Assembly: GCA_963920665.1 (NCBI GenBank)
Contig: OY987272.1
Span: 7,073,001 to 7,137,000 of the forward strand
DNA from: Straminergon stramineum
Taxonomy: Eukaryota; Streptophyta; Bryopsida; Hypnales; Calliergonaceae
Direction of reading: 5' to 3'
DNA: 64,000 bases
Made by a program: the position numbers and the translations under genes. Below, one piece after another: positions 8,801-55,907 of this stretch. The notes below the pieces were generated by a model. It did no database searches. It had not been told where the DNA came from and worked only from the letters and a program-made list of their open reading frames with translations. Numbering within the stretch: the first letter of the stretch is position 1; the number at the start of each line of letters is the position of its first letter.

Positions 8801-10057
8801 TTGTGGATGACGGAAGTTGTTAGAGGCAATTCTTCCACACAAGGTGGAAAAGCAAAAGGTTCCCGGATCGTGAATGAGAAACCCCTGCCGTGGAAGGGGA
8901 ACGGCCGATCTCACTCCAAGCTTGGGCCAGACGGTTGGCTCAAAAGGCCGGAGCCCCAGCACACCAGCATAACCCCAAACTCATGCTCCGCCATAGCCAC
9001 AATTAAGTTACTCTCTTCTTCAGTTCTCCTTCGACACGGCGGGGGCTTCCCCTTCTTCTCGCTCTTCTCCTCTTCTTTCCTTTCTTTCTCTCTCTTTTTT
9101 TTCCTTTTTTTTTCCTCCGTTTATTTCTACGCTATGTATGCCAATCAATCTTGTGGTGGCCGGCAACTCTCGCTGTAACTTAACTTAACACATCTCCGTC
9201 TCGTCTCGCTTCGAATAGATGTGATGTTCCGTAAGGTGACGTAGCTTTTATGCCTCCTTCGTCTTCCACGGCGACGCGGGGAGCTCCCTGACGCCAATTT
9301 AGTCGAATTTTGTGGAGGAGTGAGTGTTCGTGTTCGTGTTTGTGTGTGCGGTGGTGGAAGTGATTGACTGATTGTGCGTCGGACGGTATTCGCGTCCACC
9401 GGGAGCGGCGGTACGTGATTGTGGAGGAGACGAGACGTGGTTTTGAGAACGCTCGGGAGGAGCCTGTACGGGAGTTTGCCGTCGGGGATCCGAAGGGAAG
9501 CATGTGGCACTTGTGTATGGAGCTTGGCGAGCAGCGTTCGCATTCATCGTAGGTAGCTAGACTCTTGGTGTGCCTGCCACGTTGCGTGTTGTGTATGCGC
9601 CGTTCTTTTTTTTATGCTGCCACTCGGCGGCTGTTGAAGGCGAAGAGTTGGTGACGTGTTTAGGAGGGAGAGAGAGGGAGAGAGAGGGAGTCTTTGGTGA
9701 GGAGGAGAGTGCTTTTTAGGAAGGGAGGGAGTGTTTTGGTTTCCATCGGAACTGAACTGGCCCCTGGAATTGTGTGCTGTGCTTTCCCTGTGTGGTAGCT
9801 TCGGTGCGCCTCACCATGTTGCCCCATGGGAGCAGCACCGGATTGGTGGCGATTCAGTGAAGCAGGTGAGGGAGTCGCGTGTTTTGCGTGCGGTCCTATT
9901 CCTCGGGTCGTGGTTCTTTGTGAGAGTGTCGATTTGACGAGGATGCTTTTCTTTTTCCGCGGAATTGATCGGATTGTTGAGCTCGGGAATTGATGCGCTG
10001 TTCATTGCGTTTGTGGCGCAGAGCTTCGAGATAAGATCTCTTGTCGAGGACAAGATT
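8801..10057 (+). promoter_or_regulatory. Promoter and 5' leader region of the DUF3133 gene
   Basis: GC content rises sharply here compared with the AT-rich upstream sequence. A dense pyrimidine tract (about 9040-9120, CTTCTTCTC and TTTCTTTCTCTC repeats) is typical of plant transcription-start or leader regions. A (GA)-rich tract lies at 9664-9692. Short ATG-started frames occur between them (9364-9552 and 9731-9937). If they are in the mRNA they would be upstream ORFs able to reduce translation of the main frame. The transcription start is not located. Confidence 0.5.
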
Positions 10058-30100: not shown

Positions 30101-33100
30101 TAAGGTTTTCATATGCCTTCCCAATTGCATCCCCATCTACATAATTATATCTAGCATTTCATGCCTTGATATATTGAACAAAATATATATGAGAAGGCTA
30201 TTAGGAAGAAGGTCCATAATGAATATGCTTATATTAGATACTATAAAGAAGTTCCAAGCACATTGAGATTCCTTTTTTGGATGTTTTTCCATCTTGTTGG
30301 ATTGGCAAACCACAACTTTCTCTACTATGGTCTAAATAACAATTTTTTTATAACATATATTTTTCAACCTTTAAGAAGATAATTCAAGTTTTTCATTTTT
30401 TCCTTATTATGATCATCCAAAAGAATGAAATTGATGACCTGAAAGAGGTGCATACATTCAATATTTCTATTTTGTAAAAATGTCTAATTTCTAGTATTGC
30501 AATTAATAAAATACAAATATTTCTAAGGTCTATATGAGAAAATCATAGAATCTATTAGTGTATTAATTATACTTGTAAAATTTTAGAAAATAAATAAATA
30601 AATTTAGAAGGGTTTATTTTGTATTTATAATAAAATTTGAACAATTGAATAAATCTAAATTCTAAATCATTCAACAAAAAAATTGAATTGAACAAATGAA
30701 TATGGATGTGATCTAAAGCTTCAAGTTTAGAAGTTTGAAAATTTGATTGTAAAATGTATTCAAAAAATAATTTTTTTTCTTAGTTTGTATCCATATAGCG
30801 AGAGTAAAAAATCAAACTTTACAACAAACATCTAAACCTTCATATGTATGCATTAAAGGTAATTTTTTTTCAATGAAAAAATCAACAATGAAGGAAGACT
30901 CAAAGTCATAAACCATTGGCAACAATAATGTTCGAATCTAAATTATTTCACAATTCGATTTTCTTTTGAAATATAAACAAATCATTTTCTTCAATTATGG
31001 TCACTCATACATTTTAAGGTTACATGATGTCAAGTCAAATTACAATGAACAATCAATTTTTGAAAAGATCATTTTAGTAATTTTTAATTTTTTACAATGT
31101 ATATTATGAATTTGGTAAACAAAATTTTAGAATTCATCTTTCCATTATAAGATATGAAATGCAAACTCCAAATTAAACTTGAAAATATCAATGTAGCTAT
31201 TGTAAGGGTTTAACTTTCAAAGTTGGTATAGAATAAAGAAAGCCTCCATATCATATATTTAATGTTGTATTTTTATTTCTATATTGATGATGAGTAATGT
31301 TTGTTTTGAAAATAATATTAACTCCTAAAGGGTTTGGGTACTTTTGGGCAAAATTTGTTAAAATCTACCACTATTTAGGGCAATGGAAAAAAAATGAATT
31401 AATTTTTTTTTTAAAATTCAACCTTTGAAAAGTGTACTAAACTATTGTAGGAATGTAAGGAAAAAATTTCTTAAATTTTGACCTTACAGATTTGAGATTA
31501 TAGTATTTGAAGTTAGAAGAATTTTTTTGGACCCTACCTATCAAAGTCAACAAACTTTAACTCCTAGATTGAGAATTTTGCACTACACTTGCTTTATTTT
31601 CTTACAATTGCATCTTGCATTGTGTTAGTTGCATACTTGCAAAATTAAAAGATGATTTTTCATAATTTGACTAAACTGTCCAAAAAACTCGAGGCAACCT
31701 AACTTACAATGTAGGCACCCAATTGGGAAGAAAATTACATTCCCCAAAAGGGGGTACATGTTCACACTTGTGTCAAATTTTTACAAAAAAATCCATTCAA
31801 AATTGACATTATAGAAACTTGCATGAATATTCAATTGGATGTTCAACAATCACTTGGTCCTCTAGGGGTTAATTTGAGCAAATGCAAACATGAAGTTGAG
31901 TTTCATGTGACAACAATTATGTCAGTGAATCTAGCAAAATCTATCAAATGTGGTAGTAAAATCTTATTATCTTATAAACAATGATACCTTAAGCTTTTGT
32001 TGATATGATATAATATATGAATCATTGATTTCTCCATTTGGGGGAACTATGTAATAGAATTTCTAATTCTTCAAATACAATCCTAAATTGAATTGGTTTT
32101 GCTAATAACAAATGTTTTTTCAAAAGAGCTTGAAAATGGATGTTTACAATTTCAAGAAGATAGAGAACATAAGTATGTCATTTTAGGCATTTTAGGCATT
32201 TAGAAGTTAATTTATGTGATTTCAAAAAATCAATTCAAAATTGATCAAAATATTATGCACTATTTACTACATTTGTAATCTATTTCTAAATCAATTTTCT
32301 ATTTATTATTTACAATATATTATAGAGAATAAAAGCTCAAAATTAAAAGCATTGAAAGAAGAGATGAGATTGGTGGAGCTACGCTTAACTAATGAACAAC
32401 AAAATAATATCAAGAAAAAAGACGAATATGCAAAGATGCATACAAAAGTTAGCCATTTGCAAAACCAAGTTATTACTCTCTCAAATCAATTACGACAAGC
32501 TAAACAATCTTCTATGAATGCTCAACTTGTTGATCATGTTAATTGTCAAGTGGTAAGATGTTATTTATATGAAAAAAATTTCATTTTTGTATTCACTAGA
32601 AATACATATCATTCATTCATTCATTCATTAAATCTTTTTTCATATTACATGCATGTAGTAATACAAATGTTGCACTAAGTATATCAATCTAGTAAATGAC
32701 AATTTATAGCCTTTGAAATAATTCTAGGTTCAGTAGAATAGAACCATTAATTTACTCATTACTTTTATTTGTTTTTGGTCAAAAAAAATATGTTTTATAC
32801 TTTAATTCATAAAGTTTTTTTCATACCTACAACTGTCACTTTGCATTGCTATCTCTTTTGAAATACAAATTTGAAGTTGAAAGTTGAAAACACAACGAAA
32901 TCCAATGTATTCCATTAAACTAAATAGTATAAAACTATCTCAACCTCTAAATGATCTTGGACAAAATTTAGATGTGCTATAGAATTTGTCTTTTACTCCT
33001 TTTCTGAGGTTTTCATTGAAAGAAATTTTGTTATGCTTCATGCATAGAAATAATTTGAATACTAGTAGATGATGGTCTCTAGTGACTAGAGCTCAAGAAT

Positions 33101-36100
33101 ACAAAATTTATAGTAGTCATTTTAGAAGACATAGAGTCCATTTACCAAAAGATAAAGTGGCAACTAGTGTTTGGACTCCTTATTGCTATTGTTTATGTAA
33201 TGTTTAGCAATATTTAGAATGTAAAGCAATTCCTATTGTTCACCAACTATTCAATAATATTCTACATTATAATCCATTATGGACAATATCCTAGACAATT
33301 ACATTGTACAATGTTAATTAGTATTATAACTATTGTACATCCAATCCACTTAACATTGCACATTGTAAGTATTGCATATTCAATTAAGTACATTAATTCC
33401 TATGTCACTATAGCTCCTACTCTGACATACACTGTAGTTCACTATACAACATGGTCAAAATTGCATTACTATACATTAATGCCTATATTATAGCTCCTAC
33501 TCTGACATACACTGTAGTTCACTATACAACATGGTCAAAATTGCATTACTATACATTAATGCCTACATTATAGCTCCTACTCTGACATCTTGTTTGCATT
33601 CTTTTAAGGGAGTTTAATTTTGTAAAGATGACCAACATAGATTTTCATAATAAATTTTTTATGTACACTTACACATATGGAAGATGAGAAGACTCAAACT
33701 CTCCATTGCTATCATAATCCATCAAGGGACTCATTTTTGCTTGTGGAATTGGCTATAATTTATGTGTGTATTAATTAATGTTTAGTGATTTGGTCAAAAT
33801 GGTATATATAATTGTACATTCTAATGAATTAATGATTCATTTTCTTGCCAAAATTTTAACCTCATTGCAAGATAGGTGAAATGATATTAGCTAGGTAAAA
33901 AATTATCATACAATTTATTTATAATCGATGTTGAAAGGTGACAATCTTGACCCAACATTTGACTTTGGTCTTAAGACCAACTTCATGTCATTTGCGTAGT
34001 CAAATGTTTGGTCTTCCAAGACCAAGTATTTGTTAGTAGAATGAACGAATTTGAAAAATAATTTTCAATTTAAAAAAATTAATTCCGAAGGGCTTTATTT
34101 TGACAATTCATTAAAAAGTTGTGTTTTTGACATGGGATATTTTTATAATTCATTAAAATTTCATTGTACATTGATTATTTGATTAGAAATAAATGGTCAA
34201 AAATTTGATTAGAAAAAATCATTATTTTTCCTAAAAAACTTTAAGCCCTTCAATAATATTGTACATGTGTAACTTCCATTTCTTCAAACAAAAATGACAA
34301 TTTCAATGTACATTGTAACTATCATTCAAAGCCAATTTATTTTTCTATTTATAAAAAAACAACTTGAAATGAGTTTTTGGATGGCCAAAAATACTCCTTA
34401 AGGACAAGCAATGACCACAAAATGGTTGCATAGTTCAATAGGGGTTAATGCATCCTTGTTTGTTACTTGATTTACAAGATATTTCATATATACTTGTAGG
34501 CTAAGCAATATTAAAATCTCAATGGAAAAAAAATCAAACTACCAATCAAACTAAAGAACACAAAATTCAAATAATTAATCTCTTTACTATTGTTGATTAT
34601 CCTTATTATGTACTAAACTTGATGCATTGTAGATAAAGTTATTACAAGAAGAGACTACAAAAGGAAAAGAAATAACTTACAAACTTGTTGTTCAATTGGC
34701 ACAATATAGGCACAAAGAAAAAAGAATTGAAGAAATTTCTATAAATAATGATATACCACCACTATTAGAAAACAAAGATACTTTAGACTTTCATGACTCC
34801 AACATAGTACAAGAAAAAACAATACAAGCTACACCACACATCCATGCTTCCCAAGATCATGGTTTTAATGAAAAAGGTGAAGTTTTTTTTAGAAGTTTTT
34901 AAATTTCATCACACCATATGACATAAGCCATATGTACCTAAGTATTTACTTGCAATGGTTTCAACTTACATATTGAAATAATGAACAAAGTCTATAGAGA
35001 TGGTTATTACATATTGATAGAAAATTCATTGGTGATAATTATATATACTTTTAACTTCACCTCAAATAAAATGATAGATTTTTATTTATTTATTTATAGT
35101 TATTATAAATACATTCATAATCAATAACTATATACTAATATAATATATGTAATTCCAAATGGTAGTTATTAAAAAATTCGATACACTTTTATATTATTGG
35201 TTGTTTAGTAAAAAATTAAATGTATCAGTAGATGACATTGCAGGTATTGAACTTGAAATATCCAAAGAAACATTAGCTAAAAAAGTTCAAAATCTACAAA
35301 CAAAATTAAAGAATTGTAGAGACAATTTTAAACAAAGTGAAGAAAATCAAAGACTATGTGAAAAGATGATGCAAGACTATAAAATTGAAGTGCTTGAGAG
35401 TAGGAAAGTAATGTTTGAAAATAAAAAGAATTTACTTTTAGAGAGACGCAAACAAAGATCAAGTATTGATTGTTTGAAGATAAAAAAATTGCTAGAGAAT
35501 TTGCAAGAGGTTGAAAATGATAATAGTAAACTTCAAAAAGTTGTCATGGTTGGTCAAGAATCTACAATAAACAAATTGAAGAAAGAGGTACAATTGTTCA
35601 TCAAATATCACATTATAATCAATGCAAATTCATCCAATTAGTCTTAAATGAAGGTTATTTTTTGAAGATTTAATCATTATTTGGGATGAATAAGAAGTCA
35701 TTTGAACCAAACATCACCTCATAGCACTCTTTTCATCAACTAGAATATGAACTTTGGGGTAAAGAGTTTGTTCATTTAGTCCCCTATGTGAAAATTTAAA
35801 AAATCCAAAATTACAAAACTAATGTATAGAAAGTAGATATTGCATAATGTAACTACCATATGTAACATGGGAGAAAATTGATCTCTATAGACTCTTGCTT
35901 GAAATGTGTACTTTTTGAGCATAAGAGCTTAGAATCAATTTAAGGTACATCTATAATTGACAATCTCAAAATTCATAGTTTGTTCATGCCATGTGCAATA
36001 AATACACTCAACATGAATGTAGAACCTTCTTTCAATTGCCAATAGGACCTATTGAACATTATGATGGTTTTATAGTAGGAACTATAGTTAAATGCTAATT

Positions 36101-39100
36101 TGAATGCTATTAGACAATGTTACATTACTAACAAATGATTACAAGCATTAGGTGACAGAGCTCAAACGCTTTTGTATTGAAATGGGGAAAGAGGATGTGG
36201 AGTGTAACATCCATGAATATGATATACCTAACATGGAAAATGTAAGCATTCTAGATAAAGAAAATGAAATACTTCAACTAAAATTTGATCGTGACCAAGC
36301 TCTTTGGAAGCTCGGCCAATTAGAACGCCGTATGCACATTTTATTTGAAGTTGATGTTCGTGGAAAGTCAGAAGCCACATGTGAATACTTCATTCCACCA
36401 ACAACTGCTCCACATGCATTTGCTGGGAAAAAACTACTAATTCAAGAACCAAATGCAATTTCTCTAATCCACGCATTCATAAAAAAGGTTCTTCCATCTG
36501 GATCATTGCAACGTGAAAAAGAATTAGAATGTGTTGTTGAAGGATTGTTAAGACTAGTGGAGAAAAAAAGACTAGAAGTTGAACATTTACAACAAGCTTG
36601 TCATGATACTATTCTCTACATGGAATGTAGTAAACAACTCCAACAACAATTGAATGAACTTCGAGGAAAATTATGGAATAGTGATGAATGTTGTCAATCT
36701 AGTCCAACACATTTTGATACAGTTACAGGTTTATATCTCAACATATTTAGAAGACCATTTTTAAGAGTAAATGTCTAAATTACAATGCATTGTAAAATTT
36801 TATGTAAATAATTGTGTTTTTAAAATTGAAGGCAAGCTTATACAAATGCCTTGCAGATTTAAAAAAGGATGTTGAAAATTTAAGGCAAGCTAATACAAAT
36901 TTGTTGCATTCTCTTAAAGAAACGGAAGACTCTTACTTGGAGTCACAAGAAAAAGTAAATTCATTCTTTCAAAGGTTTTTTTGATTGCCTACTTCCAAGT
37001 TTTATTGCACATTCATTCTTTGAGGTTCCAATATTTACAACTTGAATGCCACTTGAACAAAAACAAAATCTTACTATACATATTATCATTTTGAAACTAA
37101 AAAAATAAAATTTTCCGTCTTAAATATTATGATTTTGAATCAATATAAACAAATTTTGTCTAAAAGCCCTTATAATAAAGACTTATTCCATTTCAAAGCC
37201 ATATTCGTCTTATAAATTTTGTAATCCTATTGAAACATAGAGTTTAAATGAGTTATATGAAAAAAATACCTCAAATTTCAATCAAATATTGCATTCAATA
37301 ACCATAAAAAGACCTAAATTTGAAAATTTATTTATCTCCTAAAGGTCCAAACAACGATTTTTTTAGCAACATAGCAATTTGGGGCAACTCACTATAGATG
37401 GGATTTTTATTTTTTTCTTTGAAATTTTCATAAAATATGAGCTTGAGGAGTAGCTTGAAGGCCCAACAATTTTCATAACTTTTGACTATATGGTCCAAAA
37501 AATGTTATATGGTATGTAATTTTCATTATTCACTAGGCAATCTAGGCAACTAAAAAAAAATCTTAAAAAATCACTTTTTTAAAAAACATAAATTTGAAAT
37601 TAGCTTCCTAGATTTATATATGCTTGGAAAGCTTTGAATCATTCCATTTTGATTAATGAGATGATAGTTATAAGGAGTTTTAGTTTGAAAGCAGTTATAG
37701 ATTCTTTACTCTAAATTAAACTTTGAAGTCTTTTATTTAACTCAATTTTCAATATGATTTGAAAAAATTAAAGTCATAGGATGTAGATTTTTATTTCAAC
37801 ATTACCACCATTGGGGTTGTCATTTTTCAATTCCATAAAGAAATTATTAACAATTTTGTATTTTGAATCATTTTCTACTTCTTTCTACTTACTATTTTTT
37901 TCCTACATATTATACAATTTCAAATGATCTGAATTTTTTCCAGCACCCAAACAACTTGCTTTGAAAAATGAATTCAAGTAAGCACCACCATTTTGGATAC
38001 TTTTTCATATAAATGAGACCTTTTAAAGTGCAGTTGCCTTTTTTTTCACAAGGTCAAAATAAGGATTTTTGTGAATTCAAAAGTTAATATCTTGCAATCT
38101 ACACGATGGAAATTTCTGATTTTTTTTTCCACATCTATTCAAAATTTCAAACCAGCGTACTACAAGATCCTACGGTGACATGAGACCAAAACTTATTTTT
38201 TTCTAAAATTTGGCACTTGTACTAGAAATGACACTTTTGGAGCTTTTTGGGTGAAAACATAGACAAAATCCTTCAGGGGTTAATCATTAGAGTCAAAAGC
38301 ATTAGGACTAGGAGGGGTGTCATCCCTAAGATTAATTGAATTTATATCTACCATTAAACTAACCTTAATCCCTGATTCAAATAATTTGTTCTCTTTGAAC
38401 ATTAATTTTGAGAGAAACACACTCAACCATCGCATTTCATCCATAGCTTTATTTGTTGAAGAAGATTTGAATGATGAGGGGCAAAATGGCACTAGCTTGT
38501 ATTACTTGAAACGTGTTTGAAACAAATTCAACTATCAATAATATCAATATGAGAATTATTTTATTGGAATTATCAACAATATTTGTATAGATTTCTATTA
38601 ATTTAAAACTTTGGAATTACAAGGACATTGAAAAGATAGATTTGCAATAATTATATATTGAATGGAGATTTTAGAAATAAGAATAAACAAAATACCCTAG
38701 AATATGCCAACCATTGTAAATTCAAAGGATTAGTTTCAAAATCTTTCTTGAAATTTGAATCATAATTTTGAATATACATATTAAATAACTATGTTTTTAT
38801 TTTATTTTAATTTTGTAGTTACGTGAAGCAACCAAAGATAAATTTTCTCCTCAGAAGCGGTGCTCTTTTAATGAAGCCAAACAACATGATTTATCTAATT
38901 CGGACATGCAAGCCCAAGAGATATCTAGACTTCAAAAAGAAATGGGAGAGAAATCACAAACTATTAGTGATTTGAAATCACAACTAGAAGCTTGAGATGA
39001 TGAACTAGATTTTCTACATGGACAACTTGCAATAAAAGAAGCTTTGGAAAGTCACAAAGATGAAGAAATAACCAATGAAGAGATGGCCAAAGAAAATACA

Positions 39101-39417
39101 AATATTGATGATCTTACTCTTGAAAACCTTCAAATGGCAAATTTTGAACTTTCTAAGGTAATATTTTGTAAAAGAATATTTTGTTAATATACTTATTTAT
39201 TATATAGTTTATAAATTTCAAATATTATACAACTAATCTATGATGTAAGTCTTTTTGACTTATTTGCACATATTTTTGGATAGATTCAAACATATAATTT
39301 TGTGTATAATATATAAAATAATGTATATTATAGGTATGTGCTCAATATGAAGAGCTTCTTGAAAGACAAACACAACAATTAGGGATTCCATTTCAATCCC
39401 TTAGAAACATTCTATAG
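27188..39417 (+). CDS. Large coiled-coil protein gene with one in-frame TGA
   Basis: Exons that join with GT-AG borders and matching phase are 27188-27313, 27822-28019, 28321-28481, 29399-29471, 29768-29840, 32326-32552, 34633-34876, 35244-35587, 36152-36721, 36832-36954, 38819-39157 and 39334-39417 (TAG). They give about 853 codons. The joins around 29840-32326 are least certain, because exon-like pieces at 30424-30447 and 32116-32161 could also belong. Nearly every exon is rich in Glu, Lys, Gln and Leu with heptad-like spacing, as in long coiled coils. The most compositionally complex exon is 36152-36721 (for example FIPPTTAPHAFAGKK). A TGA at 38993-38995 interrupts the exon that continues DDELDFLHGQL. 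CGA-to-TGA would explain it. If real, it removes the last 81 residues. I do not recognise the family. A cytoskeletal, centriolar or flagellar role is possible for such proteins but is not shown. Confidence 0.6.
31318..31872. mobile_element. TTAACCCC-family element, 555 bp copy, inside an intron
   Basis: The left end TTAACTCCTAAAGGGTTTGG and the right end GGTCCTCTAGGGGTTAA are inverted repeats. It lies within the predicted intron 29841-32325 of the coiled-coil gene. A very short relative, probably a deletion product, lies at 34390-34448 with similar ends. Confidence 0.7.
33411..33588. repeat. 80 bp tandem repeat, 2.2 copies
   Basis: Positions 33411-33490 and 33491-33570 are identical except for one base. 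A third copy is cut off after 18 bp at 33588. Sequence just before 33411 resembles the unit's end, suggesting an older, decayed copy. A (CATT)n run lies nearby at 32608-32629. Both are in introns of the coiled-coil gene. Confidence 0.9.
37332..38283. mobile_element. TTAACCCC-family element, 950 bp copy, reverse orientation
   Basis: It aligns along its length with the reverse complement of 4160-5094. The ends are TTATCTCCTAAAGGTCC and CCTTCAGGGGTTAA. It lies in the predicted intron 36955-38818 of the coiled-coil gene and accounts for half of that intron. Confidence 0.75.
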
Positions 39418-39934
39418 TTGCAAATTAAATACATTATTTTAAAAAAAGAATATTTTTTTTGTATTTATTTTTGAATTAATTAAATAAATAAAATTTTCGT
39501 TCAAATATTTCAAAAAAAATTATCTATATATTTGCTTTACTAGGTTGACTTAAGTGAAACTTATTTATTTAATATTGAGTAAGCACATATTTTTTTGAAT
39601 TAAAAAAATCACTTGATTTTAGTTATAAATATACAAATTGATATTCAAAATTTCCAATTGCTTAGAACTTTCAATAAAAAAAAAATTCTTATTGAATCTA
39701 CTTTCTAACCCACTTTTAATAGTTTGAATTTTGAAAAGAATTGAAAACTCAAAAATTTATTGCTCTTGTTGTCTTGTTATGATTACAATATATTTATATG
39801 CTACTTTGTCAAACTTTCTAATATAATAATCATATTGCACCACAATTGCCAAGTTAAGATTTGCACTTTGGGGAGAGTGGAAGATTTTTTTAGGTTGTTT
39901 GGTAATTGATATGATTAGAAAAAATGGATGAATG

Positions 39935-40106
39935 CACTAGTAGAAAATTGTGTTGTAGTGAATAAAAGCTAGGTGACATTTTTGTTCACTGTAACACAAT
40001 TTTTAGAAAACTTCGTTGCAATGAATGCAATTTTTAGAAATATGTGTTGCCGTGAAGAAAAATGTCACCTAGCTTTTATTCACTGCAATGTAGTTTTCTT
40101 CTAGGT
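39935..40106. mobile_element. CACTA-type foldback MITE, about 170 bp
   Basis: The left end begins CACTAGTAGAAAATTG. The right arm ends TTTTCTTCTAG and is an inverted copy of the left. The arms pair over about 50 bp (for example 'agctaggtgacattttt' on the left, with its complement at 40065-40081). CACTA-class transposons characteristically start with CACTA. No transposase is present. Confidence 0.75.
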
Positions 40107-43956: not shown

Positions 43957-46900
43957 TCATCTATGTCTTGATGCGAGAAGAGGAGGCTCACTACAAGTAT
44001 CAGGAGGGAGCTCGCTGCGAGTATCAGTCCAGGCCTCCAACGCCACCCCAAACTCCACAGCGTGCAAGGACTTGGAATACTCCACCTGCACAAGAGGTCG
44101 CAAGTCCGTCTCCACAATGGGTTCAGTGCCCTGTAACAGGGCAATGACTTGAGGGGTGGTGGGTCGTAAGTCGGGGTTGTCCAGGGTGCACAACAGGGCT
44201 GTTTTCAGGGCCCTCAAAACCTGCTCTTTGTCATACTGGATTTGAAGCCGGGAGTCCACCAGGCATAGCAGCACCTCCTCGTCACTTCCAATTTGGGACT
44301 GCTTGTATATGCATCTCACCTGCAGGGCCATATCACAATGTTTCAATTAGTTAATGGGAGTTTTAATGCACTCTGAGCGAGAAAACATGGTGTTAGAAGT
44401 GGTGTTAGCAAAGTGAATCTAGTTCAAAAGTGCAGCAAAATGTATTTCTGAAGTCCTCACTAACACTATTCTTAACACCAAGTGTGAGCATAGCCTAATG
44501 GTTAATCCTGTAACATCAATGCAAACATCAAGTGTCTGATGGATGACAAAATCTTTCTATGCAAGATAGGAGTACAAATCATGTTCATCCTTAGAATTTT
44601 GTGTGAAAAGGGGAGGTCTTGCACAATAGTTTGACCTCCAATGAATGCTCTTGGGTTCTTTTAAGCAATTGATTCACATGGTACCAAAAAGGATGATTTC
44701 CCCAGTGACTAGCCTGACGTTCTGTTTTGGGGTTAAAGATGCATTCATATCTAGAGGAGGTGTTATATTGGAAGCTTAATGAAGATAATAAAATATACCA
44801 ACCCAAAAAATAGAGACCTTAAAATACAATCATGTGAGTGAAACTAGGTGAAGCAAGCCTCATCTATAATCAGACAAGCGCAAGAGGCCAGAGAATATAT
44901 ACTACCCAAGTGGCTGGATTGTGTATATTCTGCATTTTTTAAGGATAGAATTGTGTGTTTTGAAAATTATTTTAATTGACTAATAACTTCCGAAGTGGAC
45001 TACCGTCTGTCTATTCCGTCTGATCAATTAGAAACTAACAATAGAAAGTCCACTCTTTTGGTGGTCTTTTGGTGGTTGATCAGAAGAAAGTTTACAACTC
45101 ATAATCTTTCTCCTCAATATGAGCCCTCAAATGAGATTGAGACACATAGGTCCTTGAAAATTATGGAGGTGACTAAATCAAAATTATGGCCTGATTCCCA
45201 GCCTAAGTGAAGACGAATTTTAAGAAGATAATTACTTGTAAGCTAGTGCTCATGCTGTTAGTTGAAAGGAGATAGGAAGCAAGATAGGATTTTACTTAAC
45301 CCAATCACCCACTGCAATGGATGATGTATTGAAAACTGCACTTCATTCAATTAATATTCATTGAGGAAGTTTCGAAGAAGATTGTGTAATATATCAATGC
45401 AAAAGAACAAAAATTTACTACGCCTGAAACAATGATATTACTATTTTGGAGACATTTTTTTTATATTTATTCCAATTTTTAAAAAATGAAAACTTACTAT
45501 ATTTAGTTCAAGCACTTTGGGGTTCAGTGCAAATGGCTTAAGTTACTTACCCTGTCAACAAGGAAGAGCAAGGCCCCTGAAGGAGTACGCTTCATGTTCA
45601 CCTCACCAGTAACAATTTCCATCAAAACCACTCCATAGCTGTAGGTGTCCACCTTCTCTGTCAATTGACCTCGGGTGACATACTCCGGTGCAACATACCC
45701 TCTACAATACAGTGGCCAAACATCAGACAATCACTTCAACGAAACAATTTAAAGGACAAATTCAAAAGCACAGATTGAAGCAGTTGTTATGCACACTCAG
45801 CAGAGGTGTTGGTCACTTTCTAGTTTATCGAGTAAATATGGCATAATCTAACTACTTCTTGCGCACCTTCTAGTTGACCTAAATTTGACCAATTCCAAAC
45901 ATGCCAACCATTCATGTTAAAAAAATATAACCTCGAGTCAGCACAATTGAAAGTTTCTCACAATATTATCCAAGGAATAGTAGAATATTATGTCACCGTC
46001 GTGAAGTGCTGAAAATTCAACAATTGAAAGAGGTCCCCAAATGAAAACGAAACCGACATTGACAAGTCAACACAACTATGAATAAATCAAAGAAGAGACT
46101 GAGAACAACAGGTTAAATAATAATATTCTATCCTGTGTTAAAAAGAAGGTCTACCTGAAAAAATATTTTTTTCTCAATGATCGAAAATGACAGTTCGACT
46201 CCATTCCTGAATAATGTTATATAACAAGCCTGATCTCTCAACTGGTTATCTACTTCATACCACGTGCAACACCTCAATTGAAATAACATTTCAACGCTGT
46301 TTTGGTTCAGCATGATGTTGTTTCAACAGCAGGTTTTTGCACTATTCGGTGTACAACACAAGCACTGAAGGAATTTCATTCAGACATTAGATTGGAATCG
46401 AGTAAAAATGGATTTCTACGAAGGGATTTCCATTGCTGGATAATGTTAAGTAACAGCTGAATGATCATCCAGTTCAAAATACGTGCATTCCCCCATTTGG
46501 AACAAACAATGGAATGTTGTTTCAACCAACTGAAACAACATTTCAATGTTGTTTTGGTTCACCATGATACTGTTTCAACAGCAGATTTTTGAACTTAGGT
46601 TGCACTTAGGTTTAGGGTTTAGGGTTTTAGTTTTTTAGGGTTTAGGTTCCCATTGAATTGCGATGAGGGGATTATAGAAATGATCACGTACAAAGTGCCA
46701 GCCACATTGGTGGTGAAATGAGACTGCTCGTCCGGGAACAGCTTGGCCAGTCCAAAATCGGCAATTTTCGCTTCCAAGTTCCGGTCAAGCAGGACATTGC
46801 TGGCCTTGATGTCTCGGTGAATGATTCGAGGTGTGATTTCGTTGTGTAAATATGCCAGTCCTCGGGCAGTTCCCAATGCAATGTTGAACCGGGTGGCCCA

Positions 46901-49900
46901 ATTTATATCGACAGCTTCTTTGGGACCCCCTGCTCAGTCAACAAATACACACAACTTCCAATGGATCAGCTGCTGCGCATTCATAAGAACATTCCTAACT
47001 AACACTGGAGGGAGTCCGTTTTGCTACCCAAGAAAGAAAGAAAGAAAGAGTCCCCAGCATTGCAACTTCCCAGCCAGCTTAGAACTCTTTTGCAACTTCC
47101 CAATCAGTCAATGACATTAGCATTTGCAACTTCCTAATCAACCAATGACTCTCTATGGATTAAACTAAATTCATTCCCAAGGATCCAAGGAGGGACTATA
47201 TGAATCTCCAAGAGGGAATGGTTTAGGTTGGTTAACAATGTTATGTTGCAATGTCAAAAGTTTACACAATATATGGACCAAGATAATCACAACTGAGTGT
47301 AACATTCCTATACAATATATATATTGCAGTAGAACACTCTTCCATGCAATTGTTGTGGACCAAAGTAATTCTAATAAGTTTTTTTTTTAGTTTTAGCTAT
47401 GCATTGGAATTAAAAGTATTATGATTTTATTTGTTTAAAACAAAATGGGTTAGTAAAAAGTCAAGTATGAATTAGCCCTTGATACATTAGAAAAAAATTA
47501 GAAACAAAAACTTACAACAAGATTATAAGCATGATGTGTGTACCTACATGGAAATAGGAAAAATGTTTTGCAAATCCCACATTGAAACAAGTTGAAAAAA
47601 AGAGAATCAATGAAAAAGAATCAATGCTCTACATGAATCAATAAATAGATATTTTAAAGGAGTTTTGCTAGTTGATTATGTTTTCTTAAAGTGGTCTTAC
47701 TCTCTTTATGAGTTCTCATAGTAGGCAGAATGTAGATTTAGAGCTTTTTAAGCAAAAAAATCATGGCATGGGAAGAATCTAGACATCAAGATCATCATTT
47801 TTGCAATCTTCATTTCTTCCCATCCCTACATGAACTCATTCAAAATCTTGTACAAAAATTAAAATTTAAAAAAAAACAAGTGACCAACCTAATCACATCA
47901 TTAAAGAATAGACAAAATTTGCTTTTTGAACATACTTGGATGTACATCATCGATTTTGTACATAGCTCCAACAATAAGTTCTTGAAAGCATTCATAGTCC
48001 ACCTTATGGATGTGGGGTCTAAGTTTAATGAAAGATTATATCCAAAACTGACACTCAAGATTGTTGTTATTCTTTTGATGTCCTGGTGCATAATGTTAGA
48101 TCTCTTAATTTGTTGGTTTTGGGTATATATACCTTAGTTTGAGCACATAGAGGTTCAGCAGATGTGAGGAGCCAAAGAGGAGTGCATTTTTTTCCAACAT
48201 AGGCTATAGTCTGACCCCAAAAGATTGACAAAGGCTTCAATTTTCTAGATACTTTTCAGTTTCTCTTAATTTGTTGGTTTTGATGTTTACTTACCTTAAG
48301 CTTAGCTTAGCTTGAGTATATTGGAGTTGAGCACATGTGAGAAAGGGAAAAGAGGAGCGCATTTAATTTCAAACATAGGCTAGGCTAGAGTCTGACCTAG
48401 CAAAGACTGACGAAGGCTTCGATTTTCCATATACTCGTACACCAGCAAGCGGTGCCTTCCTTCCACACAACATCCACGCAACCTCACCAAGTTGCGGTGC
48501 TGCACTTGACTGATGACCACCACCTCGTTCAAAAACTCTCGCACGCCTTGCTTGGATGTCTCCGACAGCTTCTTCACCGCCACCACGGTGCCATCTTTGA
48601 GCTTCCCCTGATGGATGGTCCACAAGTTAAGCTCCAGAAACATTAGCTCATGTCGCTCCTTGACCTTTAGAAGACTTAAGATATACGCACCAATAATCGT
48701 CACTAATTACAACTGAGTATGAGCATAATTGCTATTATTAAACATAAATTGTTTCATTGTTTCTTATTGGTAAATAAAAGAGGATTCCAACACATTTTAG
48801 AACGCATTGGTTAAACACCGTATGAACAAGTTAAGAACTTCAAAATATTGTCTTTAGATGTATCCCAAACCAACACCAGGCTCTCATATACTCTCATGAT
48901 ACTCATGATCGCATACTCATGTGAGTATGCATATATGAGAAATTTTATGAAATTCAACTGAGGGTTGCACAGAGAGACTTATTTCAACTGTAGAGAAAAA
49001 ACGGTTGGGTTATTCTGAGCATTATGTATAAATCTGAACCAACATAGATGGAAGTGCCACAAATTAATCGAACCTACAGATATGCCACACATAGGATTCT
49101 AATGCTGGTTACACAAAGTGAACAAAAGTGAACATTCAACCAAGTGCAAGATTCTCTTCTTTCTTTCTATTATGATTCTTGTACAATTCTGAACCTCAGA
49201 TCTTCATCAAAAAGAGAAGCCCTCATGAATAGAGTTAAAAAACCTCGCCTGAGATTCAAATCTCTCCATTCTGACACCTCAAATAAGCATCGATTACCCA
49301 CGCAATTAATAAGTTATTCAACAGTGATTTGGAATACCTGGAAGACTTCTCCAAAACCACCTTCACCTAGCTTCATGTCATCGTGAAACTTCTGAGTAGC
49401 AGCTCTCAGCTCCTTGTAAGTGTACTGGTTTGTTGCGATGGACTGCCGTGCAAAATCTGTCACAAAACAACAGGCGGCGACCTCTGTAAGTGGGTGATGA
49501 ATCATAACCTTCTGCACCTAAAGCAGTCAAATTTTGAATGGGAACCAACTTGAAAACCTAGGGTGATGTGTTTCTTATAAGAGAATACGAGAGATAATCA
49601 AAATTGTATCAGAATTTCAATGGTGTATGTCAAATGTAATGTTATGATAACCTTTGCTTCTTATCTACATCAAATCGTTAACCCACTTGTTCCTCAATCA
49701 TTGAGAAAGGGTAAGCCATTCCACTAAGTGCCTTCACTAATGTAAAGCACCTAGGCATGAGAATATAAACCCAAACCTCAATTGCTTTAGATGAGTGACG
49801 TTATGAAATGAAGTGCCTCACCCTGCATCAAAAACTAAGAAAATTGCACCACTCAATGGTCAAGTCTTGGTTTACACCAGTTTCAACTACATGCACATGT

Positions 49901-52900
49901 CTTCTGTTGTCACACACACGAGTGAAGTTATAACCAGTGTAGACAAGACTGGTTATAATGTGTCACGTCCCATGTTGCCCATGAACGCGAATATTCTGTC
50001 CTCGAAAAAAAATTGAGCTTCGTTCTTTGTGATATAGTTTGTGTTCTTTGCAATTCTTCTTTGGGAGGCTGTGCTTTTAACCTGTAAGTACACAGACGAA
50101 TATTAAATAACGCTCAAGAACACTACTGAGGAAGATACTGGGGTTCACAAAAGAACGCCCTCAGTTTGGACAACCTTAATTAGTATTGAGGATTGAGGTT
50201 AGTGTACATATTGTGTGAATAAACTCCAGAAATTGCACTACGTGTATCTTAAGTGATGCTCACTTGTCACATTCACGAGTGAAGCCTACAACCTTAAAAT
50301 TTGAAAACCGTCGCTAAATTATTCCTCTTCGTTACTCTTTGTAAAATATATCTTTGCATTTTTGGAAATTTCGGATTCATCTCACCTGCTTTCGTTTCTC
50401 GAATGGACAACTGAGCAGCTCTCCTCTTGAAATAGAAGTAAAAGAAAATGACGGTCATGAGGACGAGGGGGGCTGGAAGGATGTAGGCCAGCAGCAAGAG
50501 CGTGATGTCTCTCTTCGGAGGGCCTTGGAATGCACAGTTGTCGCAGCACAGGTTCTGCAGGAAGGCAATCCTGGGGGGAACATTCTGGAATGCAGTCTGA
50601 GGGCAAAGGGCTTGGTCATGCGCTTGCACTGGCCTGGTACACTTGGTCAGGTTGACCTGGACATCACCAAAAAAAGGGTGGCTCAGAACTGCTCAAATGA
50701 CAGAGGTTGCTAACTTAGTAGCGTCGGCACTTGACTTGCCTAATAGTTATTTCTTTTCATGCCACGCATGCACTTTTAGAGGTTTCATCCAATCACAACA
50801 TGATATGTGGCAATATCCTAAAGAAGACAAAGGTTTTGGGTAGCGAAAGACATCAGGATTAACGCTGTTTTACTCACTCGGGATTAAAATGGGAGGAGGC
50901 TTTGAATTGATAAAAGCTGCATGTGAGGAAGTTCAAGTAGGACTTTATTCAAAACACAAGCCAGTGCTACTGGGATAGAGCCTCTCGTAGTGTACAGACC
51001 AAGACTTTAACATGACATTCATTACAACGACCTTCTAAAATATTTTAACACGCTTGACACGTAATCATTGACTGAACCACACATTCCACTAAGTCATCAG
51101 GTAGGGTGCTCTAAAAGCGACCCTGCTCTAAAAGTGACCAGAAATTAGAGGTACATTTCGCTTTCTTCAATGTACAAAAAGTACCAAAAGTGTACATTTA
51201 AGGAGGTGGTCGCTTTTAGTGACCACTGCATTTTCAACTTCAAAAATTCGTAACTAATTCCAGGAAGGTCCAAAAAATATGAAACGATTTGGGTTCGATG
51301 CCAATTCCATTTTTCTTCCTAAGAAAATTTACTGAAAATTGTTTCAATTGTTTCAAGGACTTTAGCTTCCCCCCAAATGCAATCAGCTCTTAAAAGGTCG
51401 CTTTCACGCTTTAAGAGCAGACTACCTTAGTCAATCATTCTCGGGGGGACCCATCCAGTGACGAAAAGAACTCAGGGTGTAATACTCAACCTGGTTCAAT
51501 TGACAGGGCAGGGGAACGCTGGCAACGTTTGCATTGATAATTCTCCGGGAAATGGCTTCGGTGATAGTATCTGAGTTCACCACCACATCAATACCCGCAA
51601 CTCCATAAAGAATTCCTTCAATCATAACTGCACAAGGAAGACAACAAAGAATTAGTATTGCAAAGCCTCGGCGTAGAGTTTTGGAACGCAATTCTGAAAT
51701 CGCCATTTAATTTCTACAGGTCAACTCGAACACCCCGTAATGAGAAAACTATAGAGTATGAGTAGCTTAGTCTTCTATTGTGGTTTACAATCACATGCTA
51801 ACTTGGCTTTTATTGGCAAACCTGCAAAACTCCCCAGTTACTTATGTTCAAGGGGCCACTTACAGTTCAATTTCTGTCCAAATGTCCCATAAATTTATAA
51901 AATTGATGAATGGGTAAATATTAGAAGGCGCCAAGACTGACGGCGGACTTGTTAGAATGTGTAAGAGGGTGTCACAAGAGACGAAGGCGAAGGAGAGAGG
52001 TCTCTAACGAGATGTTAGAATGTGTAAGACACCTGTTATTTATACCGTCGAATAATGTAATAAAGCATGGCACCATACCGGCAGATGAAAATGCAAACAG
52101 AGAAATAGAAAAGAAAAAAGGTGCGGACCTGGATACGTGACCGTGGCAACAAGGCCCAGCCCATCAAAGTCATCATACGTGTCGGTCCAGAACGTGCTAT
52201 TCGCAGTGAATCTCAACGCCGCTTGATAATCAAAGTAAGGGCGGATGGCCCACAGGGGATTCCGCAGCGCATCCACAAGCTCCACTCGCGTGACTGTGCT
52301 GTTGAGAAGGCACGACAAGCTGCGGAGCTCACCAAGTGCTGGTGCATTCAGAGTTGGAGCCTCCTCGGCTGCCAAGACGAAGAAGAACACAATAACGCCG
52401 TCCCTGCTGAGGGATGGGAGCTGCTGCAACAGTGATGAATCGTTGCTGAATCCGGGCTGGGCGAAGTTTCCATCTGTCAGCACCAGGAGAATCTGTGCAT
52501 ACGACAGCGAAGATGACCAGTAATTACTGTGAGTCATAGTGTAATCGTTTGCAATCTATATGTTATTAAGGTAGTCTGCTCTGAAAGCGACCTCTTTAGA
52601 GCTGATTGCATTTGGTGGGGGGGAGGTAAACTCCCTGAAATAATTTTTCAGTAAATTTTCTTAGGAAGAAAGATGGAATTGGCATCTAACCCAAGTCGTT
52701 TCAGATTTTTTGGACCTACGTGGAATTATTTACGAATTTTTGAAGGGATCACTAAAAGCGATCACCTCCTGTACACCATTGGTGCATTGAAGAAAGCAAA
52801 ATGTACCTCTATGTTACCAGTCGCTTTTAGAGCAGGGTCACTTTCAGAACACCCTACCTTAGAGAGAAATATATGTAAAGTCAAGTCTAGAGTTGGAGGC

Positions 52901-55900
52901 AACCGTGTCATCGTCTCATTGGCTAGTCAGAAGAGAATTATGATACATAATCTAAGCCCCAAGATCAATTATCAGCACCAGGAGCATCTGACCTTACAGC
53001 ATTGTAAGTAAGCAGATTAAGAACATAGTGAACGCCAAGTCTAGTGTTCGAGGCAACCGTGTCACTGACTTTTTGGCTAGTCAGAAGAGAGTTAAAATCC
53101 ATATTAATCTTTCTCCTCATTGTAAGCCCCAAGATTAATTGTCAGCATCAGGAGCATCTGCCCATACGATACTGTAGGTAAGCAGATAATTAATTGTCGT
53201 GAGGCTTAGTTGTTAGCAATCTATTTGTTGTACGTTAGATAAAAGAACATAAAGTCAAGTATAGAGTTGGAGGCAACCGTGTCAGTCTCATTAGCTGAAA
53301 GAATTCTAATCCATATTAATCTTTCTCCTCATTCAAAGCTTTAGATTAACCAAAATGTATAGATTACGGTAGGACATTCTTGGTTGATTGGAAGGACTTG
53401 GCATTGCGTCTAATAATTCTCTCAAGCTTTTAGCTGACCAGCTTACCTAATCCGTAAGTTCAATGAGGGCTTTGTAGTTTAAAGCAGAAGGATGACATTC
53501 AAGACGAGGAAACTCATTAGGAACCATAATCTGTCCGGTATTTTAATTTCTATTTTTTAACACTCAGTTTCTCAAGATCTGCTCTCTTCACCATTGAATC
53601 ACCCGAAATCGTAGCATCTTCATTGTGATTATTCTAGGTATTGCAAATTAAGAGCATGGCTGTGGAAAAAGTACATCCCTTCACCACGTGCACGGCACAG
53701 CATATACTCTTTTCCAAAACAGGTACCAGATTTCTCCAGAAGTTAGATACACAGCGTGTAACATAATCAAGAATGGATGAAGAATACCTTAAGTTTACTG
53801 GTCGAGTTAAAGGCTGTTCTTGCTGTAGACAACCCACTCGTGATGTTCGACAGCCCTTTGGGGGAGTTAGTCAACCGAGAGATTGCTAAGGTATTGTACA
53901 ATAGGTCCAAATGTTGATCCTCTTGAACAACGATCTGCCATAGAAAGAACATAAATCAGAATATCAATCGTCTCTTCGTGCTCCAAATGTTTGCTAATAG
54001 ATGGATAAACAGTAACAAACACAGCGAGCACTGAACTTATGTTGCAAAAGCAGGATAGTAGTTGGTAACAATAACTACATTCATGTAATTTTATTTCAAC
54101 AAGAGGAGTGAACTGTTATTTTCAATTACCGAGGTCGGTCGTTGTACGGTAGCCCCACTAGCGTCGAACGTAACCACGGTCACACGGTCATCAACTGTGA
54201 AAGTGCCAAAAAGCTCTCTGATGACGTTCTGTGATAATGCGAATGTGGACTCAGAGACTTGCCCTGTATCCAGCAACACTACTAAGTCTTTGACAACAGA
54301 TGTAGCAGTTATGTACCTGCACAAAGGATAAATGTTCCCATTTCAAGGTGTGAAGAACCATGGTGTAATGAGGCAGGGTAGCCACATTTTCACTGGTTTT
54401 AGGCAGGCATAGCCTCAGTGAAGGACGGGCCACACTAGCACAAACGGTATTTGAGAACTGAGAGCTTGCAAAAACAAGTAGCAGCTTTTGTTTTAACAAT
54501 CGCTAAGTTGAAACTTCACTATCAAACTTTTCGTTCCATTTCAATTCTCGTCTTTCCAAAATAACCTCATCTTGAACAGTTGACAAAGCGATAGGCACCA
54601 AACTGCGGGGATCCGTTGGCAGCCACATTACATTACCAGGGCCGTTTCCGAGGGTCATACTCGATGCAGCCCTTCAAGGGATCAGCTTCCTGTGGATTCC
54701 AAAGAATCAACTTCAGTCTCTGCATGAAATTGATATTCCTCGGGAGTCCTTACTCTCGAGGTCCGAAACAAAGCTTTTTTTTGGCAACCCACAGAGGTGT
54801 CGTACAAGCAGGTGGCAAACGGTTACTAAGTAATCCAGAAGAAAGCCACCGGTTGGAAACAATCTTTTCAGAGATGACTCGAAACTTGAAACTTGAAACA
54901 TGAGTTGCGTACCCGTCCAGGATAAATCCGCCAGGCGCCCTCCGCCGATCCGAAATAATTCCAGAACGTGAGTTCGGAGAGGATGGTCTCACTGCTGGCA
55001 GGAAACTGAAGATTCGATTGAGAGCAGATAGATCTCGTCAACTCCGGACTCAAATCGGAGTAATTCCGGAACTGGGGCGGAACACTGTAACCAGCAACAA
55101 AATTAGGGCAACGCAACGATATTTAGGGCTTCATCAATCCAACCCTAACTGCGTCTCAAAACTAACCAATCCACACCACTCATAACAAACTATATACTAC
55201 AAAATCATCTCAAAATAGGACTGCAGCGCGAAACTCTCCATTCCATACCACTCATAAACAAACTAAACACCACAAAATCATCTCAAAAGAAGGACTTCGG
55301 CTCGAAACTCTCCATTCCATGCCACTCATAAACAAACTGCAAACTCAAAATCACTCCAAAAAAGTCCAGCAACTTGAGAAAACATCAAAATTTCGAAAAT
55401 ACAACAAAAATGCAGCCCCATACCGCACGAAGCCGTTTCCCGTGAAGTCGACCTTGATGTGCAAACACGCCTCGCTGCCATTCCCAGGACTCCGACATTC
55501 AGTCACATTACTCGGCGCTGCCACACAAGTGAAATGGTCTTTCTGCGTCGGCGAACACGAATGACGGGAGCATTTGTCGACACAATTCGACAAACCTGCA
55601 GGAGGAGCCTCGCATTCCTAAGCTCAGAAAAAAATCAAAATCAAAATAACATGCAGTACCGAAACTTTCCCAATGGCGGACACAAACAACTCACTGTAAC
55701 CTACTTACCGCAGTCGTTCGCCTCCGCTGCCAGTTGCAAGAAGCGCGCATGGTGGGCTAGCAACTGCACTTTCTTCTCCTTGTCGTTCAAAAAATCCTCA
55801 TCCTGCTGCGCTTGCCCTACAACAATTTCGCACCACAGCAACAGCAACAAACCCAGCAACAGAGGGCGATGATGACGACGACGATGACGACCTAACTTCG

Positions 55901-55907
55901 AGTCCAT
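43957..55907 (-). CDS. Receptor-like kinase with VWA-Cache (alpha2delta-like) ectodomain, 936 aa
   Basis: Fourteen exons read on the minus strand and join in phase: 55907-55709, 55595-55424, 55084-54913, 54689-54637, 54316-54130, 53934-53788, 52492-52129, 51627-51491, 50656-50386, 49483-49338, 48607-48397, 46929-46692, 45701-45551, 44319-43957 (TGA). A signal peptide (hydrophobic 15-30) is followed by a Cys-rich VWA_N-like region ending PRKRPWY (about 194-200). A VWA domain follows (about 205-370), with TDG at 316-318. Then comes a Cache-like region containing [20 protein letters not shown] and [13 protein letters not shown] membrane span lies at about 528-553. The kinase has LGEGGFGEV (606-614), K628, HRD (724-726), DFG (744-746) and APEY, so it should be active. 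The ectodomain parallels animal calcium-channel alpha2delta and CACHD1. The VWA metal motif is DTGQV (D215) instead of DxSxS, so metal binding is doubtful. The acceptor at 49483 could instead be at 49456, nine residues shorter. The ligand is unknown; a small-molecule sensor is inferred. Confidence 0.9.
44500..44736. mobile_element. Family C repeat in the last intron of the receptor kinase
   Basis: It is an inverted relative of the repeats at 17034 and 20218. It contains 'gatggatgacaaaatctttc', 'gcacaatagtttgacctcc' and 'aaaaaggatgatttcccc', each with a close match at 19960-20145. It lies in intron 44320-45550. Confidence 0.65.
46273..46596. repeat. Direct repeat of about 68 bp in a receptor-kinase intron
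   Basis: Positions 46273-46341 and 46527-46596 share about 85 percent of their bases, including 'gttttggttca' and 'gtttcaacagcag'. The second copy lies directly before the telomere-like patch. Both are in intron 45702-46691. Confidence 0.7.
46600..46650 (+). repeat. Interstitial telomere-like patch (TTTAGGG)
   Basis: GGTTTAGGGTTTAGGGTTTT is followed by a second TTTTTTAGGGTTTAGG. This is the plant-type telomere unit, degenerate, about five units, inside an intron 40 bp from the kinase exon 46692-46929. It probably arose by break repair. Confidence 0.8.
47000..48100. other. Long intron sequence, AT-rich, no coding signal
   Basis: This is part of intron 46930-48396. An AAAG microsatellite lies at 47030-47049. 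A 124-codon plus-strand frame at 47763-48137 resembles nothing known and has the composition of AT-rich intron DNA, so it is not called as a gene. Confidence 0.5.
48101..48440. repeat. Tandem duplication copying the end of a kinase exon
   Basis: Two direct units start with 'tctcttaatttgttggtttt' (48101 and about 48262) and run in parallel for about 165 bp. The second unit ends in the real exon 48397-48607, which encodes YEYMENRSL. The first ends in a decayed copy of that exon edge at 48220-48257 (aagattgacaaaggcttcaa against aagactgacgaaggcttcga). The copy is now intronic. Confidence 0.8.
51099..51427. mobile_element. AGGTAG-family MITE in a receptor-kinase intron, 329 bp
   Basis: The ends are AGGTAGGGTGCTCTAAAAGC and GCTTTAAGAGCAGACTACCT. 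The interior holds the family block in reverse orientation ('aaaaatatgaaacgatttgg'). It lies in intron 50657-51490, and one end is 64 bp from the splice donor of exon 51627-51491. The left flank no longer shows a clean TA. Confidence 0.85.
52569..52859. mobile_element. AGGTAG-family MITE in a receptor-kinase intron, 291 bp
   Basis: The ends are AGGTAGTCTGCTCTGAAAGC and CACTTTCAGAACACCCTACCT, flanked by TA at 52567-52568 and 52860-52861. It is the best-preserved target duplication in the family. It lies in intron 52493-53787, next to tandem repeats that include copies of the exon edge. Confidence 0.9.
52868..53345. repeat. Three diverged tandem units including a copied exon edge
   Basis: Units start near 52868, 53029 and 53243, each with 'gaggcaaccgtgtca'. 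The first two contain 'gtcagca(c/t)caggagcatctg', a near copy of the VWA exon border at 52477-52496. So the 5' edge of that exon was duplicated with its intron, and the copies have since decayed. A distant relative lies in another intron near 45070-45160. Confidence 0.75.

Follow-up and report, generated by a model that had tools for sequence, protein, structure and literature searches.

A predicted moss receptor-like kinase with an alpha2delta/CACHD1-type ectodomain and a possible amino-acid pocket

In the moss Straminergon stramineum, a gene on a 64,000-nucleotide stretch of contig OY987272.1 (positions 7,073,001 to 7,137,000 of the forward strand, assembly GCA_963920665.1; hereafter the window) encodes a predicted receptor-like kinase (RLK) whose ectodomain resembles those of animal alpha2delta proteins and CACHD1. 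The best explanation, to which we assign a probability of about 0.58, is a moss plasma-membrane receptor of the alpha2delta/CACHD1 type, in which a VWA domain is inserted after the RxWY segment of one dCache domain and an amino-acid-type pocket controls the kinase. Gene structure, ectodomain homology, insertion point, kinase motifs, bryophyte family and six motif residues were computed; the fold is a prediction. For ligand, gating and downstream signaling we infer a route. An apoplastic amino acid or close analogue would be held in the membrane-distal dCache pocket, a ligand-induced change in the dCache/VWA module would alter receptor packing or contact with a co-receptor, and the cytoplasmic RLK/Pelle kinase would start a phosphorylation cascade.

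Gene model and ectodomain identity

Read in three frames, with exons joined by consensus sites, the minus strand yields a receptor gene at 43957..55907, from a first ATG at 55907 to a TGA stop ending at 43957. The first-pass annotation had these coordinates and the strand right; its 936-residue model gives way to a spliced open frame of 927 codons plus stop. All 13 introns are GT-AG, and phase is kept at all 13 joins of the 14 exons without an internal stop. The full protein matches Pfam VWA (PF00092) at residues 209-350 (E 6.7e-8, above the cut-off) and Pkinase at residues 592-807 (E 7.1e-49). On the Kyte-Doolittle scale the only two hydrophobic segments lie within 13-34 and 526-554, and the layout is that of RLK/Pelle proteins: a signal peptide, a single transmembrane span and an RLK-type kinase with K, HRD and DFG. 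The order of signal peptide, VWA, Cache-like part, membrane span and kinase proposed in the annotation is recovered; VWA_N (E 0.31) and MCP-like_PDC_1 (E 0.24) are below their cut-offs and are matched only in a separate scan of residues 1-572. Among the other Pfam families that it had named, VWA is present, and dCache_1 (PF02743) and VGCC_alpha2 (PF08473) are unmatched in the window protein; the latter is also absent from the 25 of 27 Pfam families listed for 30 family members. Its view that the ectodomain falls outside the usual plant RLK classes agrees with the lack of any Pfam match up to E 1 to LRR, lectin, DUF26, LysM, malectin or WAK domains in the window protein.

The identity of the ectodomain comes from sequence and profile searches. 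With residues 1-572 as a single sequence, phmmer against PDB returns alpha2delta-1 (1.3e-11) and CACHD1 (2.4e-7), then the dCache chemoreceptor PctB (0.025). A profile of seven bryophyte ectodomains gives 3.2e-26 with alpha2delta-1 (profile positions 156-429) and 5.5e-19 with CACHD1 (157-443), and comparison with the profile of an alpha2delta-4 gives 99.2% over 297 columns, with the GVAGIDV block aligned to GVVGSDV. Each block that the annotation had read as alpha2delta-like is located: YDPRKRPWY at 192-200, TDG at 316-318, a further block from 411, and GVAGIDV at 440-446. The VWA insertion point lies directly after the RxWY segment of the dCache domain, the same as in alpha2delta and CACHD1, by sequence and by the predicted fold of two relatives, the moss protein P0001 and a liverwort protein, whose models underlie all fold comparisons made here. 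The two domains that the annotation had set in succession, VWA then Cache, are both present, but the VWA domain interrupts one dCache domain, as in alpha2delta. CACHD1 is among the best fold matches of the relatives' predicted models, and their VWA fold is predicted with good confidence; dCache chemoreceptors are not in the best 50 structure matches listed, which has no bearing on their fold. The likeness seen by the annotation therefore holds for the ectodomain, in the searches and in the predicted folds, and, judged from sequence, it is not due to chance.

The 14 exons, all on the minus strand, follow this domain plan in the splice model. Exon 1 (55709..55907, residues 1-66) carries the start codon, the signal peptide (hydrophobic 13-34) and an N-terminal segment, and exon 2 (55424..55595) a Cys-rich N-terminal segment (Cys 66-110); the spliced junction of the first is matched by the public protein P0107, which also covers the second. 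The membrane-distal half of the dCache domain starts in exon 3 (54913..55084), as placed by alpha2delta profile comparisons. Exon 4 (54637..54689) encodes YDPRKRPW, found by motif scan, with the first half of the amino-acid motif (Y192, R197, W199). Pfam supports the next three: exon 5 (54130..54316) with motif residue Y200 and the start of the inserted VWA domain, exon 6 (53788..53934) within the VWA domain, and exon 7 (52129..52492) with its C-terminal half (TDG) and the return into the dCache domain, near residue 416. Profile comparison supports exon 7 as well as exon 8 (51491..51627), where the dCache half ends with GVAGIDV and motif residue D445. A membrane-proximal Cys-rich segment, the transmembrane span (within 526-554, from hydrophobicity) and the juxtamembrane start occupy exon 9 (50386..50656). 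The rest of the juxtamembrane region and the glycine loop LGEGGFG, the latter within Pfam evidence, lie in exon 10 (49338..49456), the kinase N-lobe with VAVKK in exon 11 (48397..48607), the catalytic loop HRDIK and DFG in exon 12 (46692..46929), the end of the activation segment (GYVAPEY) and part of the C-lobe in exon 13 (45551..45701), and the remaining C-lobe, C-terminal tail and stop codon in exon 14 (43957..44319).

The exons were joined by hand over a gene 12 kb long, and no full-length transcript of this very gene has been seen, so the predicted protein might be a chimera of neighboring genes and no such receptor might exist. We regard this as highly improbable. Ectodomain and kinase occur in the same order in 12 homologues, of which seven are assigned by name to two mosses, and some are encoded on transcript-sized single contigs; all 13 joins are in phase, and those of exons 1-6 are reproduced by P0107. 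The chimera was rejected on the homologues and the splice phases. The annotation had allowed that ectodomain and kinase exons might belong to separate transcripts, and this too is countered by the 12 homologues (among which P0003 starts at the VWA domain and P0002 is an isoform without part of the kinase), some on single contigs of 3.8-4.7 kb encoding 926-945 residues. The relatives P0007, P0009 and P0010 (945, 926 and 927 residues), on contigs of 3822, 4092 and 4694 bp, fit single mRNAs that carry both parts. The source label lgn is taken here to denote a public collection of assembled reads.

P0107 (324 residues, on a single contig of 2088 bp) consists of exons 1-6 plus a 45-base segment of intron 6 that ends in a stop, with 4 substitutions in 324 residues. 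In the window, exon 1 through the 45-base segment covers 2461 bases and is thus longer than the whole P0107 contig, so the simplest reading of that contig is a spliced transcript, either from this species or from a very close one. The segment (53447..53491, minus strand) is a candidate alternative cassette exon, preceded in the window by AT rather than AG and followed by GTAAGC; its premature stop would cut the ectodomain short. A long imperfect inverted repeat found by repeat scan flanks exons 7 and 8, with one arm in intron 6 (52582..52859, plus strand) and the other in intron 8 (51099..51406, minus strand). It comprises five segments of 30-101 nt at 87-93% complementarity and a sixth of 31 nt at 71%, and could promote exon skipping, give rise to circular RNA or mark a mobile element. 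Intron 2 contains a 74-base tandem repeat (55148-55364; three copies, 82% matches). There is no tandem paralogue in the 64-kb window, where tblastn with the model gave 14 rows, each one of the gene's own exons.

The bryophyte family and its kinases

A search with the full-length protein returned 106 proteins. Twelve are moss-type receptor kinases, four from Ceratodon purpureus, three from Physcomitrium patens and five others (P0003, P0007, P0009, P0010, P0012) classed as moss-type from trees; the rest are two Riccia proteins with no listed domain, 24 animal alpha2delta-4 proteins and 68 kinase-domain entries matching via the kinase or weakly. With the ectodomain alignment as query, 14 proteins were obtained, of which P0107 and P0108 were new, and with three Riccia proteins as query, 20: 15 from Riccia, four from Marchantia and one from Calypogeia fissa (1044 residues, with a kinase). 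The 19 Riccia and Marchantia relatives have no listed kinase domain. These searches scored the 7992, 7993 and 7997 candidates sharing most words and say nothing on absence from hornworts, ferns, seed plants or algae; their limit is visible in P0014 and P0015, members of the query alignment that the ectodomain-alignment search did not return. In public databases, members of the family are labeled hypothetical or uncharacterized, or are named for their kinase or VWFA domain; one is called an "L-type lectin" receptor kinase. The latter is P0005 from Physcomitrium (L-type lectin receptor kinase IX.1-like), whose listed domains are VWA and kinase.

In the ectodomain tree, built without the fragments P0003, P0107, P0122 and P0124, the 12 moss-type rows (the window protein and 11 others) form one group (100/100) with three clades, here called A, B and C. 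The bryophyte sequences lie apart from alpha2delta-4 and a planctomycete protein in this unrooted tree, in which the alpha2delta-4, planctomycete and Calypogeia rows have long branches. The closest full-length relative, P0001, is Ceratodon purpureus KC19_VG339300 on a 110 Mb contig; the VG in its locus tag suggests a position on the V sex chromosome. Near-consecutive locus tags of kinase-less relatives (Riccia sorocarpa R1sor_025677-025680 and 025650; R. fluitans R1flu_026147-026492) suggest tandem expansion in Riccia.

The window kinase carries VAVK, HRDIK and DFGL, and its nearest match in PDB is BAK1 (254 bits, 1.4e-74). Clade C kinases have HGD for HRD in four of four members, and the Calypogeia kinase has HLD. 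The Calypogeia kinase scores 126 bits with the window kinase, and 160 bits with BAK1 against 70-135 bits with moss-type kinases. By these bit scores both kinases are closer to BAK1 than to each other, which may suggest a separate kinase fusion in Calypogeia. In a kinase tree with BAK1, Pto and two LRR-RLK sequences as references, a single clade of moss-type and Calypogeia kinases is not rejected (p-AU, approximately unbiased test, 0.221); the tree omits P0002, whose public isoform is short of part of the kinase, and also P0024, P0017 and P0018, in which an automated scan found no glycine loop. The alignment of moss and Calypogeia ectodomains continues across the span to the start of the juxtamembrane region.

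The pocket motif and its possible ligands

As described in PMC9901441, the amino-acid motif of dCache_1 domains draws a Tyr and RxWY from the first cache part and a Tyr and Asp from the second; the VWA domain splits this motif in alpha2delta-1, where Arg241 and Asp491 are key for gabapentinoid or amino-acid binding. All six motif residues are present in the window protein (Y192, R197, W199, Y200, Y416 and D445). R197 would presumably contact the ligand carboxylate and D445 the amino group. The motif is exact in all three complete rows of clade A (window, P0001, P0002), in five of five of clade B and in the one Calypogeia row, so that the pocket is invariant in 8/8 complete rows of clades A and B. 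None of the four clade C rows has it in full. Among kinase-less liverwort proteins it is exact in seven of 17 complete rows, or 10 if Phe is allowed for Tyr at 192 and 416. These counts leave out P0003, P0122 and P0124, incomplete at the sites, and P0107, which ends before the last two residues.

Several results weigh against an amino-acid receptor of this kind. R197 is replaced by Q in four of four clade C mosses, and D445 is missing in seven of the 17 complete kinase-less liverwort rows; amino-acid binding therefore cannot hold family-wide. The motif is printed as YxxxRxWY in PMC9901441, and the gap between Y and R is four residues both in the window protein and in the aligned alpha2delta-1. 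In Pfam, dCache_1 reaches E <= 0.1 in only one of 30 family members (best 6.5e-5), with VWA_N in 13 and MCP-like_PDC_1 in 10; since dCache_1 is nearly unmatched, it is the alpha2delta comparison and the fold that carry the Cache assignment. The P0001 model has a mean predicted local distance difference test (pLDDT) score of 57.3, mostly below 50 in the membrane-distal Cache part before residue 190, and this low confidence makes its fold match in that part weak evidence. Of the two models, the better (mean pLDDT 77.0) is that of the liverwort protein, which is 26% identical to P0001.

Clade C (P0009-P0012) bears on the nature of the ligand. Here W199 is also replaced, by G, in two of four members, and D445 is kept in all four. 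This is the clearest case for an inherited amino-acid motif re-tuned to another small molecule, such as an amine, an organic acid or a plant metabolite. According to PMC10104139, dCache_1AM amine domains derive from amino-acid sensors; they have kept the final aspartate of the motif and lack the conserved aromatic and positive residues with which it begins. An extra insertion further upstream is also described for them. That the family senses such a molecule is nevertheless unlikely, given that the window gene keeps the whole amino-acid motif. In the same four clade C members the pocket change R to Q and the kinase change HRD to HGD occur together.

The VWA domain and the kinase-less proteins bear on a different possibility, namely that the ectodomain mainly makes protein contacts and the receptor serves a protein of the cell wall or plasma membrane as co-receptor or docking kinase, with the old pocket kept for structure, folding or trafficking. 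CACHD1 has been solved with FZD5 and LRP6 (entry titles), and there is an analogy to CACHD1 with Frizzled/LRP6 and to alpha2delta with its channel. The confidently predicted VWA fold, the loss of D445 in seven of 17 liverwort rows and the 19 relatives without a listed kinase domain, as expected for accessory receptor-like proteins, point the same way. The metal ion-dependent adhesion site (MIDAS) of the VWA domain, however, is degenerate: the window protein has DTGQV (215-219, exon 5) instead of DxSxS, and in 13/13 moss-type rows (window and P0001-P0012) the motif is DxGxV/Q/E/A, with Gly at the first Ser position. This makes an alpha2delta-type metal-dependent contact unlikely, and the invariance of the six pocket residues in clades A and B likewise speaks against a mainly protein-binding role, which we consider rather unlikely overall. 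Because the MIDAS serines are lost, the VWA domain is more likely a structural or protein-contact module than a metal-dependent adhesion site. The confidence given to these alternatives overlaps, between them and with that of the amino-acid receptor preferred here.

An amino-acid receptor with this pocket would, if real, be a candidate for direct perception of apoplastic amino acids or gamma-aminobutyric acid (GABA) by a kinase in land plants. Its pocket residues can be named, genetically tractable hosts exist (Physcomitrium, Ceratodon, Marchantia) and gabapentinoids are ready probes. Perception of amino acids or similar small molecules by this route may occur in some early land plants, and bryophytes would join the history of the alpha2delta architecture. 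More tentatively, and on balance doubtfully, a family of bryophyte receptor kinases could sense amino acids or GABA-like metabolites via the pocket that binds gabapentin in alpha2delta. Early land plants would then share the module with animals and at least one bacterium. Mosses and a leafy liverwort would have it joined to RLK kinases, Marchantiales would have kept it in receptor-like proteins that lack a kinase and are probably encoded in gene clusters, and in one moss clade pocket (R to Q) and kinase (HRD to HGD) would have changed together.

The sequences are already public, and their recognition as an alpha2delta-type receptor kinase appears to be new as far as the literature was searched; among the matches listed, the open-licence literature holds no description of a plant VWA/Cache receptor kinase. 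A 2016 paper limits Cache domains in plants to histidine kinases (PMC4822843), and alpha2delta and CACHD1 are the only metazoan proteins reported to have Cache domains (PMC9901441). A survey of cell-surface receptors in 350 plant and algal genomes names the common ectodomains, and its main text has no "VWA", "von Willebrand" or "Cache" (PMC10834447). In wheat kinase proteins, as far as the accessible text of PMC11968617 goes, VWA lies C-terminal to the kinase, a different arrangement.

Neighboring features and comparison with known systems

Elsewhere in the window, an EDR4-like gene (enhanced disease resistance) lies at 9938-12749 on the plus strand, with an EDR4 zinc-ribbon match above the cut-off and an EDR4-like N-terminal match just below it. 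Positions 24001-40000 have 24-28% G+C, against 35% for the whole window, and inside this block lies an 80-base tandem repeat (33409-33588; 2.2 copies, 99% identical).

Prokaryotic relatives of the ectodomain were sought in 84,980 species genomes, and at least 57 loci were found; Pfam domain content was scanned for seven of them and the other 50 were read for motifs alone. L001, from Planctomycetota, alone among the seven has a VWA domain, and a dCache-like match comes after it. Like the window protein it has the VWA domain within a dCache-like domain and a YDPRVRSWY block, and it is 26% identical over 301 columns, for which profile comparison gives 99.1%. It differs in keeping DxSxS (DTSGS), and no kinase is matched in it; the dCache_1 hit of L001 itself (E 7.7e-7) misses the curated threshold. 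In the other six, dCache is matched without VWA: one chemoreceptor, one histidine kinase and four Ser/Thr kinases with a C-terminal Cache domain. Among prokaryotes, Cache receptor kinases have an analogue in bacterial Ser/Thr kinases (L025, L021, L040, L043 and P0049). They also combine Cache domain and protein kinase in one chain, but in the opposite order (N-terminal kinase, C-terminal dCache) and with no VWA match.

The alpha2delta proteins (CACNA2D1-4) have two dCache domains, whereas the ectodomain of the window protein has one and ends at about residue 525. Where alpha2delta has a glycosylphosphatidylinositol anchor, the window protein has a transmembrane span and a kinase; its MIDAS is degenerate where those of alpha2delta-1 and -2 are intact, and no calcium channel, the partner of alpha2delta, is known to partner it. 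CACHD1 shares the VWA-in-dCache fold; it has further extracellular domains and no known kinase domain, and its solved chains run to about 1030 residues. PMC9901441 describes it as a transmembrane protein. The pocket motif is shared with chemoreceptors such as PctA and PctB, with weak profile similarity (E 0.004-0.05), but these lack the VWA insertion and have a methyl-accepting signaling output; we take both to be dCache_1AA members. Plant RLK/Pelle kinases such as BAK1 and BRI1 have the same kinase domain, single span and juxtamembrane layout, and it is in the ectodomain, outside the LRR, lectin, DUF26, LysM, malectin and WAK families of Pfam, that the window protein differs from them.

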